DNA from: Natronococcus sp. CG52
Lineage (GTDB): Archaea; Halobacteriota; Halobacteria; Halobacteriales; Natrialbaceae
NCBI RefSeq assembly: GCF_023913515.1
Contig: NZ_CP099391.1
Span: forward strand, 930,001-994,000
Length of the DNA stretch: 64,000 nt
Reading direction: 5' to 3'
Positions within the stretch are counted from its first letter, which is position 1; the number at the start of each line of letters is the position of its first letter. The notes under the pieces are model-generated. The model was not told the DNA's origin. It worked only from the letters and a program-made list of their open reading frames with translations, and searched no databases. Below are positions 17,070 to 25,152 of this stretch, one piece after another. The position numbers and the translations under genes are program-made.

Positions 17070-18167
17070 ATGGGAGAGATTAACTTGCAAACCCCGGAGG
17101 GACGAGCCGAAGCCTTGCGTCGGATGCTGACGATCCGTGCGTTCGACTCGGAAGCGGGCGACCGGTTCGCGGACGGCGAGATTCCGGGGTTCGTCCACCT
17201 CTACATCGGAGAGGAGGCGGTCGGCGTCGGGACCTGCGCGGCGCTCGAGGACGACGACTACATCGCGAGCACGCACCGCGGCCACGGCCACTGCATCGCG
17301 AAGGGACTGGATCCGAAGTACATGATGGCTGAGCTCTACGGGAAAGCCGAGGGCTACTGCAACGGGAAGGGCGGATCGATGCACATCGCCGACGTCGACG
17401 CCGGAATGCTCGGCGCGAACGGGATCGTCGGCGCCGGACCGCCGCTCGCGACCGGCGCGGCGCTGTCGATCGACTACCAGGACCGCGATCAGGTCGCCGT
17501 CGGCTTCCTCGGCGACGGCGCCGTCGCCCAGGGCCAGGTACACGAGGCGATCAACCTCGCGGCGACCTGGGATCTGCCGGCGATCTTCGTCGTCGAGAAC
17601 AACCAGTACGGCGAGGCGACGCCGGTTGACAAACAGCACAACGTCGACAACCTGAGCGACACCGCACAGGCACACGACATCCCGGGACTGACCGTCGACG
17701 GGATGGACGTCACCGCGGTCGCGGAGGCCATCGGCGAGGCTCGAGCGCGCGCCCGGAACGGCGACGGGCCGACGCTCGTCGAAGCCGAGACCTACCGGTA
17801 TCGCGGCCACTACGAGGGCGACGAGGAGCCGTACCGGGACGACGAGGAGATCGAACGCTGGCAGGATCGGGATCCGATCGAGTCGTTCAGGGATCGGCTG
17901 ATCGATCGCGGCGAGCTCACCGCCGAGGAGTTCGACGAGCTGGAGGCCGAGATCGAAGCCGAAATCGAGGCGGCGGTCGAGTACGCCCAGGAGGCCGACG
18001 AGCCGATGCCCGACGAGGCGTACGACGATATGTTCGCCGAGACGCCGCCGGAGATCGAACGGTTCGCGACGGCCGCCCGGACGGACGGCGGTGAGCGGAC
18101 CGCCAGTTCGCGATCCTCGTCGGAGCCGCGCTCCGACGGCGGCCGCCCCGGAGGTGACCGACGATGA
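17070..18167 (+). CDS. 2-oxoacid (acetoin-type) dehydrogenase E1 alpha subunit (set 2)
   Basis: 365 aa. The ThDP motif is canonical: GDG at 148-150 and NN at 177-178, with STHRGHGHCIAKG and NGKGGSMHIAD upstream, a combination typical of acetoin dehydrogenase AcoA. The C-terminal ~25 residues (after the ERFATAARTDG stretch) are Ser/Arg/Gly-rich and look like a disordered tail. The stop overlaps the beta-subunit ATG by 4 nt, and an AcoX-like gene follows, which supports an acetoin or related acyloin substrate by analogy with bacterial aco operons. Confidence 0.88.
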   Translation: MGEINLQTPEGRAEALRRMLTIRAFDSEAGDRFADGEIPGFVHLYIGEEAVGVGTCAALEDDDYIASTHRGHGHCIAKGLDPKYMMAELYGKAEGYCNGKGGSMHIADVDAGMLGANGIVGAGPPLATGAALSIDYQDRDQVAVGFLGDGAVAQGQVHEAINLAATWDLPAIFVVENNQYGEATPVDKQHNVDNLSDTAQAHDIPGLTVDGMDVTAVAEAIGEARARARNGDGPTLVEAETYRYRGHYEGDEEPYRDDEEIERWQDRDPIESFRDRLIDRGELTAEEFDELEAEIEAEIEAAVEYAQEADEPMPDEAYDDMFAETPPEIERFATAARTDGGERTASSRSSSEPRSDGGRPGGDRR

Positions 18168-19171
18168 CCGCACAGACCGAAGCCGAACTCGAGACCGAAA
18201 CGGAGACGATGACCGTCCGAGAGGCAATCCGGCAGGCCCTCCGAGAGGAACTCGACCGCGACGAAGACGTCTACCTCATGGGCGAGGACATCGGGCTGTT
18301 CGGCGGCGTCCTCGAGGTGACCGGCGACCTCTACGAGGAGTTCGGCGAAGAGCGCGTCCGCGACACGCCGATCAGCGAAGCCGGCTTCATGGGCGCGGCG
18401 ACGGGCGCGGCGGCGACCGGCACCCGACCGGTCGTCGAACTCATGTTCTCGGACTTCGCGGGCGTCTCGATGGAACAGATCATGAATCAGATGGCGAAGA
18501 TGCGCTACATGTTCGGCGGGAAAGCCGAGATGCCCGTGACGGTTCGCACGACGGAGGGCGGCGGGATGGGCGCCGCGAGTCAGCACTCGGGGACAATCCA
18601 CACCTGGATCGGCCACTTCCCCGGCCTGAAAGCTGTCACTCCCGGCACCGCCGCAGCCGCGAAGGGGCTGACGAAGGCCGCGATCCGATCGGACGATCCC
18701 GTCTTCGTCTTCGAGAACAAGATGATCTACGAGCAGAAGGGCGCGGTGCCGACCGACGAGGAGTTTACGGTGCCGATCGGCGAGGCCGCGGTCGAACGCG
18801 AGGGCGAGGACGCTACCGTCGTTGCGACTCAACGTCTCGTCGGTGAGTCCCTGCAGACCGCCGAGAGTCTGGCCGGCGACGTCGACACCGAGGTGATCGA
18901 CGCCCGCTCGCTGTACCCCCTCGACACCGAGACGATCGTCGAGAGCGTCCGGAAGACCGGGCGACTCATCGTCGCCGACGAGAGTCCGCTGTCCTACGGC
19001 ACGCACGCCGAAATCGTCGCGCGGGTCCAGGAGGAGGCGTTCTTCAGCCTCGACGCGCCCATCCAGCGCGTCGGGACGCCCGACACGCACGTTCCGTTCA
19101 GCCCGCCCCTCGAGCAGGAGGTGCTGCCGGACGGCGACGACGTGCGCGAAGCGATCGAGCGAGTGACCTGA
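18164..19171 (+). CDS. 2-oxoacid (acetoin-type) dehydrogenase E1 beta subunit (set 2)
   Basis: 335 aa with the E1 beta hallmarks MGEDIGLFGG, ISEAGFMGAATGAA, ELMFSDFAG, and the C-terminal transketolase domain (TEVIDARSLYPLDTETIVES; GRLIVADESPLSYGTHAEI). Partner of the overlapping alpha subunit. The acyl group should pass to the lipoyl domain of the E2-OsmC protein encoded convergently at 20218. E3 (dihydrolipoamide dehydrogenase) is not in the window. Confidence 0.88.
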   Translation: MTAQTEAELETETETMTVREAIRQALREELDRDEDVYLMGEDIGLFGGVLEVTGDLYEEFGEERVRDTPISEAGFMGAATGAAATGTRPVVELMFSDFAGVSMEQIMNQMAKMRYMFGGKAEMPVTVRTTEGGGMGAASQHSGTIHTWIGHFPGLKAVTPGTAAAAKGLTKAAIRSDDPVFVFENKMIYEQKGAVPTDEEFTVPIGEAAVEREGEDATVVATQRLVGESLQTAESLAGDVDTEVIDARSLYPLDTETIVESVRKTGRLIVADESPLSYGTHAEIVARVQEEAFFSLDAPIQRVGTPDTHVPFSPPLEQEVLPDGDDVREAIERVT

Positions 19172-19174
19172 CTC

Positions 19175-20197
19175 GTGGCTCGCGTCGGACTGATCGGCAA
19201 CCCCGCCGCCGGTCGCGACATCCGTCGTCTCACCGGCGGCGCCAGCGTCGTCGACAACTACGCGAAGCGCCGGGTCGCGGAGTGCGTTCTCGCCGGGCTA
19301 GCGGCGGTGGTCGAGCCGCCGGACGTACGGGTCATGCCGGATCGGGCGGGGATCGCCGATCACGCGATCGACGAATCGCCAGCGGTGATCGACGCGACGA
19401 CTCTCGAGGTGCCGGCCGAGGGAACGGCAGCCGACACGCGACGGGCGGCGGCCCGGTTTCGCGAGTCGGCCGATGCCGTCGTCGTTCTTGGCGGTGACGG
19501 GACGACCCGCGACGTCGCGCGCGAAATTGGCGACGTTCCGGTCGTCGCCGTTTCCACCGGAACGAACAACGTCGTGCCGACGCCGGTCGACGGGACCGTC
19601 GCGGGAGTCGCCGCGGCGCTCGTCGCGACGGGCGCCGCGCCGCCGGACGCCGTAACCGACCGACACGGGATGGTCGAAGCGCGAGCCGAGACGGTGACCG
19701 GCGACCGGCGGCTGTCGGCGCTCGCGGCCGCCGAAATCTCCTCGTGCTCGTTCGTCGGGACGCGAGCGCTGCTCGATCCGGGGGATCTGCGCGGCGGCGT
19801 CGTCTCGCGGGCCCATCCGGGGGACATCGGTCTCGCCGCCGTCGCCGGAGCGGTCGAGACTGTCGCGCCCGAGGACCCCGGCGGCGTCGCGCTCCGGCTA
19901 ACCGACCCCGCCGACGCCTCGCGAACCGTTCGGGCGGTTCTCGCACCCGGCGTCACGGCGACCGTCGGAATCGCGTCGGTCGAGCGCCTCGAGTGGAACG
20001 ACTCCGTTCGGTTCGACGTTCCGGACGGAGTCGTCGGTGCCGACGGCGAGCGCGAACTCGAACTGACGGAGACGACGGCCGAACTGCAGGTGGTTCCTGA
20101 CGGTCCGCGGCTCGTCGACGTCGACGCGGCGCTCGAAGCCGGGGCCGACGCCGACGCGTTCGAACCAACCCGTCGGCTACCGTCGACCGAGGACTGA
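19175..20197 (+). CDS. AcoX-like protein, ATP-NAD kinase family
   Basis: 340 aa from GTG (VARVGLIGNPAAGRDIRRL). It has the NAD-kinase-fold motif GGDGTTRDVA (~110) and a STGTNNVVP segment. COG3199-type proteins called AcoX accompany acetoin dehydrogenase genes in bacteria, although their reaction is not established. It begins 3 nt after the E1 beta stop and so is co-transcribed. A second COG3199-like protein is at 40268. It could phosphorylate NAD or a sugar-like substrate. Confidence 0.72.
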   Translation: MARVGLIGNPAAGRDIRRLTGGASVVDNYAKRRVAECVLAGLAAVVEPPDVRVMPDRAGIADHAIDESPAVIDATTLEVPAEGTAADTRRAAARFRESADAVVVLGGDGTTRDVAREIGDVPVVAVSTGTNNVVPTPVDGTVAGVAAALVATGAAPPDAVTDRHGMVEARAETVTGDRRLSALAAAEISSCSFVGTRALLDPGDLRGGVVSRAHPGDIGLAAVAGAVETVAPEDPGGVALRLTDPADASRTVRAVLAPGVTATVGIASVERLEWNDSVRFDVPDGVVGADGERELELTETTAELQVVPDGPRLVDVDAALEAGADADAFEPTRRLPSTED

Positions 20198-20217: not shown

Positions 20218-22032
20218 TCAGGTTCGCTCCCAGGTGATTTCGACGGAGAGATCGTCCCGAAGCAGTTGCGAGACGTGACAGCCCCGCTCGCCGAGGTCGA
20301 CGATGCGATCCACCGTCTCGTCGTCGGCGTCGGTCTCGAGTCTGACCGTCGCCTCGAGGCGCTCGACCGAACCGCGTTCGGGGTCGGCGTCGGTCGTGAC
20401 GTCGATCGCGTCGACCGAGGCGTCGCGTTTGTCCGCCTGAAACCGGACGCTCAGCGAGAGACACGAGGCGAGGGCGCCGAGGAAGACGTCGACGGGCGTC
20501 GGTCCCGTCTCCGAGCCTCCGGCGTCCTCGGGCTCGTCGAACGACCACTCGAACGAGCCGGCTTCGATCGTCCCGCCCATCCCCTCGGGATTACGCGCAG
20601 TGACGGCCCGTCCGGGCATTTCGGGGCCGTCGATCGCTGCGCTCTCGGTGCACTCGCGTCCGATTTCGTCCGGGAGCAGCGGCCACGGATCCTCGAGGTG
20701 ATCGACCAGAGTCTCGAGGAACCTGGCGGCGTCGGCGCCGTCGACGACGCGGTGGTCGAAGGAGAGATCGAGTGGAAGTCGTCGTTGCCACTCCACCTCG
20801 TCGGTCGCGTCCTGAACGGGCGTCTCCGCGACGGCGCCGACGCCGAGGATGGCGACCTGCGGCGGGTTGATGATCGGATCGAACGATTCGACCCCGAGAA
20901 CGCCGAGGTTCGTCACCGTGAACGTCCCACCCTGTAACTCGTTCATCGTGTACGCCCCCTCGGTCGCCGCCCGGACGAGGTCTCGGCGCTCGGTCGCGAT
21001 CGACTCGAGCGATTTACCGCCGACGTCCCGGAGCACCGGCGCGATAAGCCCCTGGTCGATATCCACGGCCACGCCGACGTTGTGTTCCGTCCAGATGCGG
21101 TGTACGTCGTCCTCGAACGTCGCGTTGAACGCGGGATGTTCCTCCAGCGCCGCGGACACCGCGAGCAAGAGCACGTCCTGGACGGAGACGTCCGTCCCGA
21201 GACTGGCGTCAGCGGCGTCAGCGGTGGCGAACAGCTCCTCGGCGTCGGCTTCGCGGTGAACCGTTACGTGAACGGCTTCCCGATAACTCTCGCCGAGTCT
21301 CGAGGCGATCGTTCGGCGCATTCCGTCGAACGGGCGCTCCTCGACGAGGTTCCGTCCGAAATCGTCAGTCGAACCCGCCGCGTCCTCGACGTCCGCTTCG
21401 GTAATCGATCCCTGAAAGCCCGTTCCGTCGACGGTTGCGAGGTCGACGCCGAGTTCCTCGGCGCGTTTTCGCGCCCGCGGCGACGCATCGACGTCCGGTT
21501 CCCCTCGTTTTCCGCCGGATCCGGCCGCGTTCTCGACGTCGTCTTCGGTAACCGCTCCGTCGTATCCGGTTCCCTCGACGCGATCGAGGTCGACGTCGAG
21601 TTCCTCGGCGCGTTTTCGAGCTCGCGGGGAGATCTTGCGATCGGCAGCGGTCGGCTGCGATCCGGTTGCACGCTCGATTTCGGCGGCCGGGTCTCTCTCG
21701 TCGTCGGTCGCGGAATCAGACGGATCGGTGCTCGCCTCGTCAGTTGCCTCGAGATCCGCCGTCGCTTCCGATTCGAGGTCGCCGGTGTCGCCGTCGGCGG
21801 GAGCGACGATCCCGATCGGCGTCCCCGGTGGCACGGACTCGCCCTCCTCGAGATAGGTCCGGTGGAGGACGCCGTTCTCTCGGGCCTCGACTTCGGCGAC
21901 GCTCTTCTCGGATTCGACTTCGGCGATAACTTCTCCCTCCTCGACCGTAGATCCCTCGCCGATTGTCCACTCCAGTAACTCTCCGCGTTCCATCTCCAAT
22001 CCGAGCTTCGGCATCCTGACAACGTATCCCAT
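20218..22032 (-). CDS. E2 acyltransferase with two subunit-binding domains and a C-terminal OsmC/Ohr domain
   Basis: 604 aa. Domains in order: lipoyl domain 1-78 with acceptor Lys43 in ESEKS; acidic linker 79-130; two peripheral subunit-binding domains at ~134-168 and ~183-218, both opening SPRARKRAEEL; acyltransferase core ~230-455 with the catalytic DHRVVDG (His427, Asp431); and OsmC-like domain ~470-604 with GRAVTARNPEG, Cys524 in GALASCLSLSV and Cys585 in ERGCHVSQLL, the two redox cysteines of the OsmC/Ohr family. The protein should form the core of a 2-oxoacid dehydrogenase complex with E1 set 2, whose genes converge on it with a 20-nt gap. The OsmC domain is unusual. The chosen ATG gives MGYVVRMPKLGLEM; a longer in-frame start seven codons upstream adds MVVSFWV. 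Confidence 0.88.
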   Translation of the reverse strand: MGYVVRMPKLGLEMERGELLEWTIGEGSTVEEGEVIAEVESEKSVAEVEARENGVLHRTYLEEGESVPPGTPIGIVAPADGDTGDLESEATADLEATDEASTDPSDSATDDERDPAAEIERATGSQPTAADRKISPRARKRAEELDVDLDRVEGTGYDGAVTEDDVENAAGSGGKRGEPDVDASPRARKRAEELGVDLATVDGTGFQGSITEADVEDAAGSTDDFGRNLVEERPFDGMRRTIASRLGESYREAVHVTVHREADAEELFATADAADASLGTDVSVQDVLLLAVSAALEEHPAFNATFEDDVHRIWTEHNVGVAVDIDQGLIAPVLRDVGGKSLESIATERRDLVRAATEGAYTMNELQGGTFTVTNLGVLGVESFDPIINPPQVAILGVGAVAETPVQDATDEVEWQRRLPLDLSFDHRVVDGADAARFLETLVDHLEDPWPLLPDEIGRECTESAAIDGPEMPGRAVTARNPEGMGGTIEAGSFEWSFDEPEDAGGSETGPTPVDVFLGALASCLSLSVRFQADKRDASVDAIDVTTDADPERGSVERLEATVRLETDADDETVDRIVDLGERGCHVSQLLRDDLSVEITWERT

Positions 22033-22312: not shown

Positions 22313-24214
22313 ATGAGCGACGAAGAACTCATCTGGCGAGTCTCAGGCGGTTCCGGAGACGGAATCGACTCGACGAGTCAGAACTTCGCGAAGGCGCTGA
22401 TGCGCTCGGGGCTCGACGTATTCACACACCGACACTATCCATCACGGATCCGTGGCGGCCACACGTACGTCGAGATTCGAGCCGCAGGCCACGAGGTACA
22501 GTCACGGGGCGACGGGTACAACTTCCTCCTCGCGCTCGGGGACTCGTTTGCCCGCAACCCGCAAGAAGAAGCATACTACGGCAACGAGGAGATCAAGCCG
22601 CTCTCGGAGAACCTCGACGAACTCCGGGAAGGGGGCGTCATCGTCTACGACGAGGGTCTCCTCACCGAGGACGACGTCGCGGAACTCGACCTCGAGGAGC
22701 GCGCCGAGGAGAACGACTGGCACGTCTACCCGGTCGATCTCCGCGGTCTCGCCAAGGAGCACGGCCGCGAGGTTATGCGTAACACCGCCGGCGTCGGTAT
22801 CACGGCGGGACTGCTCGACATGGAACTCGAGCACATCGAGGACCTGATGTCCGACGCGATGGGCGGAGACGTCCTCGAGGCCAACCTCGAGATTCTCCAC
22901 GAAGCCTACGAGATGGTGGGCGACGAGATCGAGGTCGAACACGACCTCCGCGCCCCGACGGGCGAACACGACACCGAGCAGGCGCTGCTGTCCGGGTCGA
23001 ACGCGATCGCCTACGGCGCGATCGACGGTGGCTGTCGGTTCATCGCCGGCTACCCGATGACGCCGTGGACGGACGTCTTCACCATTCTCAGCCAGAACTT
23101 TCCCGACATCGGTGGCGTCTCCGAGCAGGTCGAAGACGAGATCGCCGCCGCCGCGCTCGCCGTCGGTGCGAGCCACGCCGGTGCGAAGGCCATGTCCGGT
23201 TCCTCCGGCGGTGGCTTCGCGCTGATGAGCGAACCGCTCGGTCTCGCCGAGATGACCGAGACGCCGCTCGTGCTGGTCGAATCGATGCGCGCCGGTCCCT
23301 CGACGGGGATGCCGACGAAGCCCGAGCAGGGCGACCTCGAGTTCGTCCTCTACACGAGTCAGGGCGACTCCTCGCGCGTCGTCTTCGCGCCCGGAAACAT
23401 CGAAGAGGCCTACGAACAGACGCGTCTGGCGTTCCACATCGCCTGGGAGTACCAGATTCCCACGATCATCATCTACGACCAGAAGCTCTCGGGTGAGAAC
23501 AAGAACGTCGACGTCGAGTTCTTCGACCGCGAACCCGAACCGGGTCTGGGATCGACGCTCACCGAAGAGGAACTCGCGGAGGCCGCACACGACAACTCTG
23601 GAAAGTTCAAGCGCTTCCAGCACGAGAGCGAGAACGGCGTCAGCCCGCGCTCGCTGCCCGGCCAGAAGGACGGTCGCTACCTCGCAACCGGTAACGAACA
23701 CAGTCCCGTCGGTCACATCAGCGAGGACCCCGACAACCGCGTCTACCAGATGGACCGTCGGATGCAGAAACTCGAGTCCATCCGGACGGAACTCGAAGAG
23801 GAACACGAGTCCAACCAGACCTACTTCGGCGAGGACGACGCCGAGTACGGGATCATCACGTGGGGCTCGAGTCAGGGCGCAGTTCAGGAAGCCGTCGAGC
23901 GCCTGAACGAGCAGGGCCACTCCGTAAAGGGTCTCAGCGTCTCCGACATGATGCCGTTCGCCGAGACCGAGGTGACGGAATTCCTCGAGAGCGTCGACGA
24001 GGCGATGGTCGTCGAGATGAACGCGACCGCCCAGTTCCGCGGCCTGATCCAGAAGGAACTCGGTCGCTTCGGCGAGAAGATGACCAGTCTCCTCAAGTAC
24101 AACGGGAACCCGTTCGAACCTGCCGAGATCGTCGAGGGTTACGAGGTCAACGTCGCCGACGAGGACCGCGAACCGACCGCACAGGTACGAATCGAACCCG
24201 CTGCAGGTGACTAA
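22313..24214 (+). CDS. korA: 2-oxoacid:ferredoxin oxidoreductase, alpha subunit (fused gamma-alpha)
   Basis: 633 aa. An N-terminal gamma-type domain (GGSGDGIDSTSQNFAKALMR; HYPSRIRGGHTYVEIR) is fused to the alpha domain (GGCRFIAGYPMTPWTD; QVEDEIAAAALAVGASHAGAK; RAGPSTGMPTKPEQGDL), the usual haloarchaeal arrangement. With KorB it oxidatively decarboxylates 2-oxoglutarate (or another 2-oxoacid) and reduces ferredoxin, the route haloarchaea use in the TCA cycle. The start is the ATG giving MSDEELIWRVSGG. A longer frame to the region near 22234 adds hydrophobic residues foreign to the family. Confidence 0.92.
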   Translation: MSDEELIWRVSGGSGDGIDSTSQNFAKALMRSGLDVFTHRHYPSRIRGGHTYVEIRAAGHEVQSRGDGYNFLLALGDSFARNPQEEAYYGNEEIKPLSENLDELREGGVIVYDEGLLTEDDVAELDLEERAEENDWHVYPVDLRGLAKEHGREVMRNTAGVGITAGLLDMELEHIEDLMSDAMGGDVLEANLEILHEAYEMVGDEIEVEHDLRAPTGEHDTEQALLSGSNAIAYGAIDGGCRFIAGYPMTPWTDVFTILSQNFPDIGGVSEQVEDEIAAAALAVGASHAGAKAMSGSSGGGFALMSEPLGLAEMTETPLVLVESMRAGPSTGMPTKPEQGDLEFVLYTSQGDSSRVVFAPGNIEEAYEQTRLAFHIAWEYQIPTIIIYDQKLSGENKNVDVEFFDREPEPGLGSTLTEEELAEAAHDNSGKFKRFQHESENGVSPRSLPGQKDGRYLATGNEHSPVGHISEDPDNRVYQMDRRMQKLESIRTELEEEHESNQTYFGEDDAEYGIITWGSSQGAVQEAVERLNEQGHSVKGLSVSDMMPFAETEVTEFLESVDEAMVVEMNATAQFRGLIQKELGRFGEKMTSLLKYNGNPFEPAEIVEGYEVNVADEDREPTAQVRIEPAAGD

Positions 24215-24216
24215 TC

Positions 24217-25152
24217 ATGAGTGCATTCAACGCAATCGGTGAAGAACGAGAGATCGACCGGGACGAGTTCACTCCCGGCGTCGAACCGCAGCCGACCTGG
24301 TGTCCGGGTTGTGGCGACTTCGGCGTCCTGAAGTCGCTGAAACAGGCGCTCCCGGAGGTCGGCAAGAATCCTGAAGAGGTGCTGACCGTCACCGGGATCG
24401 GCTGTTCGGGCAAGCTGAACAGCTATCTGGACACGTACGGCTTCCACACGATCCACGGCCGTTCGCTGCCCGTGGCCCGCGCCGCGAAGCTCGCGAACCC
24501 CGAGGTCGAAGTGATCGCGGCCGGCGGCGACGGCGACGGCTACGGTATCGGCGGGAACCACTTCATCCACACGGCCCGGGAGAACCACGATATGACCTAC
24601 ATCGTGTTTAACAACGAGATCTTCGGGCTGACGAAGGGACAGACATCCCCGACCAGCCCCAAGGGCCACAAGTCCAAGACCCAGCCGTCCGGCAGCGCGA
24701 AGTCGCCGCTTCGTCCGCTGTCGCTGTCGCTGAACGCCGGCGCGACGTACGTCGCGCGAACGGCCGCCGTCAACCCCAACCAAGCCAAGGAGATCATCAA
24801 GGAAGCGATCGAGCACGACGGCTTCGCCCACATCGACTTCCTGACCCAGTGCCCGACCTGGAACAAGGACGCGCGTCAGTACGTCCCGTACGTCGACGTC
24901 CAGGAGTCCGACGACTACGACTTCGACGTCCACGACCGGGAGGAAGCCGCGCGGATGATGCGCGAGACCGAGGACGTCCTCAACGAGGGCACCGTCCTCA
25001 CCGGCCGGTATTACGTCGACGACGAGAGCCCCTCCTACACCCAGGAGAAGCAGGCCGTCGGCGAGATGCCCGAGCAGCCGATCGCCGAGCGCTACTTCGA
25101 CGAGGACGGCGAGTGGGAGCGCAGCTACGACCTGCTCGACCGGCACAAGTAG
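24217..25152 (+). CDS. korB: 2-oxoacid:ferredoxin oxidoreductase, beta subunit
   Basis: 311 aa. Cysteine ligands for the 4Fe-4S cluster are seen in PTWCPGCGDFG (CxxC), GIGCSGKL and TQCPTW. The ThDP site is GGDGDGYGIGGNHFIHTA. Begins 2 nt after korA. The glycine- and serine-rich loop near TSPTSPKGHKSKTQPSGS is the usual substrate/CoA loop in Kor beta subunits. Electron acceptor is ferredoxin; no ferredoxin gene is adjacent. Confidence 0.93.
   Translation: MSAFNAIGEEREIDRDEFTPGVEPQPTWCPGCGDFGVLKSLKQALPEVGKNPEEVLTVTGIGCSGKLNSYLDTYGFHTIHGRSLPVARAAKLANPEVEVIAAGGDGDGYGIGGNHFIHTARENHDMTYIVFNNEIFGLTKGQTSPTSPKGHKSKTQPSGSAKSPLRPLSLSLNAGATYVARTAAVNPNQAKEIIKEAIEHDGFAHIDFLTQCPTWNKDARQYVPYVDVQESDDYDFDVHDREEAARMMRETEDVLNEGTVLTGRYYVDDESPSYTQEKQAVGEMPEQPIAERYFDEDGEWERSYDLLDRHK

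Follow-up and report, generated by a model that had tools for sequence, protein, structure and literature searches.

An E2 acyltransferase fused to a putatively YhfA-type OsmC domain in haloarchaea, and retention of the domain after loss of the complex

The 64,000-nucleotide stretch of Natronococcus sp. CG52 DNA that we analysed (the window) contains, on its minus strand, a gene in which an E2 acyltransferase is fused to an OsmC-fold domain (20218-22032). The frame runs from 22032 to 20218 and comprises 604 codons plus a stop, with no internal stops. The encoded protein of 604 aa begins with a lipoyl domain (residues 5-74, 21811-22020; Pfam PF00364, Biotin_lipoyl, 53 bits) that has the motif ESEKS and the predicted lipoylation site Lys43 (21904-21906), a residue that is invariant in our alignment A2 and whose motif is missing in all the reduced relatives described below. 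Two E3-binding domains follow (both PF02817; two stretches, 90 bits), the first at about residues 134-168 (21529-21633; approximate boundaries, read off the sequence) and the second at residues 183-216 (21385-21486). Such a tandem pair within one E2 (21385-21633) is also present in relatives. The acyltransferase catalytic domain (residues 231-452, 20677-21342; PF00198) matches positions 5-230 of the 232 positions of the 2-oxoacid_dh profile with 230 bits. The core is complete, and sequence and alignment place its catalytic motif DHRVVDG at residues 426-432 (20737-20757). The C-terminal OsmC-fold domain covers residues 472-604 (20221-20619), and the Pfam OsmC match (PF02566) within it, at residues 506-599, has an E of 7e-16 and a score of 58.9 bits, the cut-off being 27.5. 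Its Cys524 (20461-20463) and Cys585 (20278-20280), the equivalents of the peroxidatic and the resolving cysteine, respectively, are invariant in all aligned relatives, both in alignment A2 and among 31 aligned OsmC domains. An initial annotation of this DNA had described one continuous frame of 604 codons and had located DHRVVDG, Cys524 and Cys585; the frame was borne out, with the domains found in order by Pfam, and all three positions were correct.

A lipoyl domain with its lysine, an E3-binding domain and a core with HxxxDG, the features that mark an E2 acyltransferase, are all present in the fusion protein. It shares the three domains, as well as E1alpha, E1beta and AcoX-like neighbours, with the E2 subunits of 2-oxoacid and acetoin dehydrogenases, but differs from them in the extra C-terminal OsmC domain and in having two E3-binding domains. 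The conserved neighbours lie on the plus strand and encode E1 alpha, a TPP-dependent dehydrogenase (17070-18167; Pfam E1_dh, 310 bits) whose closest PDB sequence is human pyruvate dehydrogenase E1, E1 beta (18164-19171; Pfam Transket_pyr and Transketolase_C), and a protein with an NAD-kinase fold (19175-20197; Pfam NAD_kinase, 44.7 bits), whose gene converges on the E2 gene and which we take, from its position and family, to be AcoX-like. This gene order, E1alpha-E1beta-AcoX-E2, is conserved in most relatives. On its other side the E2 gene is adjoined by the divergent korAB genes of a 2-oxoacid:ferredoxin oxidoreductase (22313-25152 of the window), which are conserved in Natrialbaceae relatives. 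The host genome, whose nearest relative among the genomes compared is N. pandeyae, contains a second, main E2, to which an E3 gene is adjacent, and, besides the fusion, three further genes of the OsmC family. Most haloarchaeal 2-oxoacid dehydrogenase complexes are without known substrates (PMC8305020).

A search for the same fusion in other genomes, as the initial annotation had suggested, showed that about 31 of 292 Halobacteria genomes have the full-length form with its lipoyl domain, and that its usual neighbours there are E1alpha, E1beta and an AcoX-like gene. Since these genomes, which belong to several families, share the same fused frame, a sequencing frameshift or assembly artefact is ruled out. 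The other forms among the 292 genomes are a reduced form (six genomes), a separate OsmC gene (two) and a core plus OsmC domain with a decayed lipoyl part (one, G029). Wherever a fused locus also has E1, the lipoyl lysine is kept. The Haloterrigena salina group has an E2 without an OsmC domain; here OsmC is encoded separately, by a gene at the opposite end of the same cluster. It could be argued that the fusion arose neutrally, by chance of gene order, and has since been passed on by inheritance, OsmC being a stand-alone enzyme without a working link to E2; the domain does, after all, separate from E2, and it persists by itself or attached to the decayed remains of a lipoyl domain. However, we consider this very unlikely, because the fused state spans several families and has been held over a wide divergence, with the identity of the OsmC domain falling to about 32-36%, and because the separate OsmC gene of the H. 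salina group has remained in the same cluster.

Outside the haloarchaea, no fusion was found among the best matches in a phylum sample or on plasmids. The one plasmid match that reaches query residue 524 comes from a haloarchaeon too, Natrinema sp. DC36, and Pfam detects no OsmC domain in it. Fusions of an alpha/beta hydrolase with OsmC are known as esterases (PMC5113044), and genes of this type were also present among the plasmid matches; they resemble the window protein in having a C-terminal OsmC domain on another enzyme, but their partner is of the esterase type and has no lipoyl group. Our search of the open-access literature found no earlier description of an E2-OsmC fusion.

The initial annotation had also suggested comparing a predicted structure with OsmC and Ohr. 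The model of the OsmC domain, of moderate confidence (mean pLDDT 72.6), matched the OsmC fold, with the OsmC-like structure 2onf as the best Foldseek match (E 8e-8) and Z values of 11-14 against OsmC, Ohr and YhfA structures (VIA); the full-length model was too weak for use (mean pLDDT 58.9). Among these structures, PDB 1ml8, deposited as 'hypothetical protein (crp region)' and presumably YhfA, gave a Z of 13.0 and an rmsd of 1.8 over 94 residues, a Z with which other OsmC-family structures tie. The domain thus has the fold and the cysteine pair of the Ohr/OsmC peroxidases, and when 17 family members were aligned with three Ohr proteins of solved structure, both cysteines aligned with those of Ohr in all 17. 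The family differs from Ohr, on the other hand, at Arg19 and Glu51, two residues that are important in Ohr (PMC5962072). In Ohr, this pair activates the peroxidatic Cys. The position of the catalytic Arg (Arg19 of XfOhr) is occupied by Met in the window protein and by Met, Leu or Thr in the family, with Arg in 2 of the 17 members, and that of the catalytic Glu by Val in the window protein and by Val or Ile in every member, with Glu in none. One position after the missing Glu there is an acidic residue (PVD/PVE), which may be a shifted substitute for it. The scores of the domain with the NCBIfam models for Ohr (TIGR03561, 23.7 bits) and OsmC in the strict sense (TIGR03562, 19.1 bits) are far below the curated cut-offs of 88.85 and 85.8, respectively, and its best NCBIfam model, NF041052 OsmC-related (seleno)protein, reaches 61.4 bits, below the cut-off of 95. 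Hence, of the marks of the Ohr subfamily the domain has the two cysteines, but neither the Arg/Glu pair nor a sufficient TIGR03561 score. Judged by its sequence, it belongs to neither the Ohr nor the OsmC peroxidases. YhfA proteins have been described as having two cysteines and no Arg and Glu, with their biochemistry yet to be investigated (PMC8945050). Because the domain, with its OsmC fold, likewise keeps both cysteines and lacks Arg and Glu near the first of them, as E. coli YhfA does, we call it YhfA-type, a designation by residues and not by phylogeny. YhfA itself is free-standing, whereas the domain in the window is attached to E2.

These results bear on the function that the initial annotation had proposed, namely that the OsmC domain acts as a peroxidase on organic hydroperoxides, depends for this on the protein's own dihydrolipoyl arm, and thereby forms a detoxifying branch inside the complex. 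Parts of this proposal stand: the covalent fusion, the identity of the domain with its invariant cysteines, and the precedent that lipoylated proteins serve as reductants of Ohr and OsmC (PMC8945050, citing Cussiol et al. 2010; PMC5962072). The constant presence of the lipoyl lysine where E1 and a fused E2 occur together also favours it. The branch as such is weakened by the missing catalytic Arg and Glu, by the H. salina group with its separate OsmC gene and OsmC-less E2, and by loci in which the OsmC domain has outlived the complex, so that we regard it as unlikely.

The latter loci are the reduced ones. In eight of them (L047, L055, L057-L060, L063 and L064), with frames of 218-342 codons from stop to stop, a lipoyl-like N-terminus is joined directly to the OsmC domain, and the acyltransferase core, E1alpha, E1beta and AcoX are absent from the locus. 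The ES(E)K motif with the lipoyl lysine is missing in all eight, although the lipoyl remnant still scores above the Pfam cut-off in four reduced genomes. Frames of 260-296 aa among them were considered as a working lipoyl peroxidase, that is, a lipoyl-OsmC mini-fusion, but this was rejected since the lysine is missing in every one. The loss extends beyond the locus: close relatives of E1alpha are absent genome-wide from all six reduced genomes that could be searched, where the best matches are 32-40% identical, as compared with 55-88% in genomes with the cluster, and AcoX is absent genome-wide from the five or six reduced genomes sampled, save for one marginal match. At another locus, L065, E1 and the lipoyl lysine have been lost but the core has been kept. 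At L070 (G213), the E1 genes are lost and AcoX is fragmented, while the E2-OsmC gene is complete with its lysine, apparently an early stage of decay. Altogether, the lipoyl lysine is lost at nine of the ten loci without E1, and the core at eight of these nine. Since L070 keeps the lysine, L065 keeps the core and eight loci have lost both, a series of decay is visible.

The OsmC domain has not followed this decay. Both cysteines are kept at all nine loci that lack E1 and the lysine, and the reduced forms are nested within fused clades at five separate points of the OsmC tree, with good support at three of these. Two pairs composed only of reduced forms gave a pN of 0.10 against a pS of 0.40-0.41 for the OsmC domain (z about 6), which indicates that the domain has been selected after loss of the complex; on this sequence evidence it is under purifying selection in the reduced loci where tested. 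The lipoyl remnant evolves faster in the reduced-only pairs, with a dN about two to three times that of OsmC. Even without its lysine, however, it is still constrained (dN/dS about 0.2-0.5; L047, L055, L057-L060), and it may therefore have a structural role. As the cysteines have been kept where lysine and complex were lost, the domain can function when its own chain has no lipoyl group, and reduction by lipoyl in cis is not its only mode of action. That several species lost the complex but kept the domain suggests that it has a job of its own.

The reverse situation also occurs. A strong AcoX match is present in 51 of 284 genomes, about 25 of which have no close OsmC match, and the E2 lacked an OsmC domain in 14 of the 14 syntenic clusters that we read among the latter; about half of the sampled clusters are without the domain. 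It follows that the complex can do without the domain, just as the domain can do without the complex. In some of the OsmC-less E2 proteins (L112, L121-L126, L131 and L132), the catalytic DHRxxDG has decayed to a YDTRA-type sequence beside intact E1 genes, and these proteins are apparently pseudo-acyltransferases. Two Haloterrigena-like genomes (L106 and L108) have, adjacent to another E1beta gene, a short E2 core frame (268-279 aa from stop to stop) that shares 58-59% identity with the core in the window. The optional nature of the domain in syntenic clusters, the missing Arg and Glu, and the fact that YhfA-type proteins are without an established activity (PMC8945050) would fit a role of the domain in regulating or docking the complex, as a thiol sensor or binding module and not as an enzyme acting on peroxides; its persistence in reduced lineages would then be due to co-option. 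However, the motifs AACLS and ERGCHVSQ are unchanged after loss of the complex in about five lineages, which points to one conserved function independent of the complex and makes such a regulatory or docking role quite unlikely.

We favour, with a probability of about 0.5, the view that the protein combines the E2 core of a complex of the 2-oxoacid/acetoin dehydrogenase type with a YhfA-type, two-cysteine redox module that has its own function independent of the arm; this independence follows from the retention of the module after loss of the complex and of the lipoyl lysine. Most likely, the OsmC domain would be a thiol redox module that can be served by dihydrolipoyl groups, which would act in cis where the complex is intact and in trans otherwise. 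We infer its redox chemistry, oxidised substrate and electron donor as follows. An oxidant or electrophile would react with Cys524 and oxidise it, and the oxidised form would be resolved by Cys585. In the intact complex, the swinging dihydrolipoyl arm can probably reduce the module. In lineages without the complex, the module would presumably be reduced in trans, for instance by a remaining E2/E3 complex; donation in trans is possible there, since all six genome-searched reduced genomes keep another, main-type E2 with its own lipoyl domain. It is also conceivable, although we hold this wider view only tentatively and think it rather doubtful, that YhfA-type proteins are in general lipoyl-linked thiol redox enzymes without the Arg/Glu pair of Ohr, one of which was tethered to the complex in haloarchaea and freed several times upon loss of the complex. 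The fusion would then be a Rosetta-stone clue to a lipoyl-linked function of the YhfA type.

If the favoured view is true, a widespread OsmC subfamily of unknown role would be tied to lipoyl redox chemistry, and a complex of central metabolism would contain a thiol module. Related haloarchaea have intact, split, decaying and reduced versions, which make the electron donor of the domain directly testable, and the loci with and without the complex constitute a natural experiment on the function of the OsmC domain.
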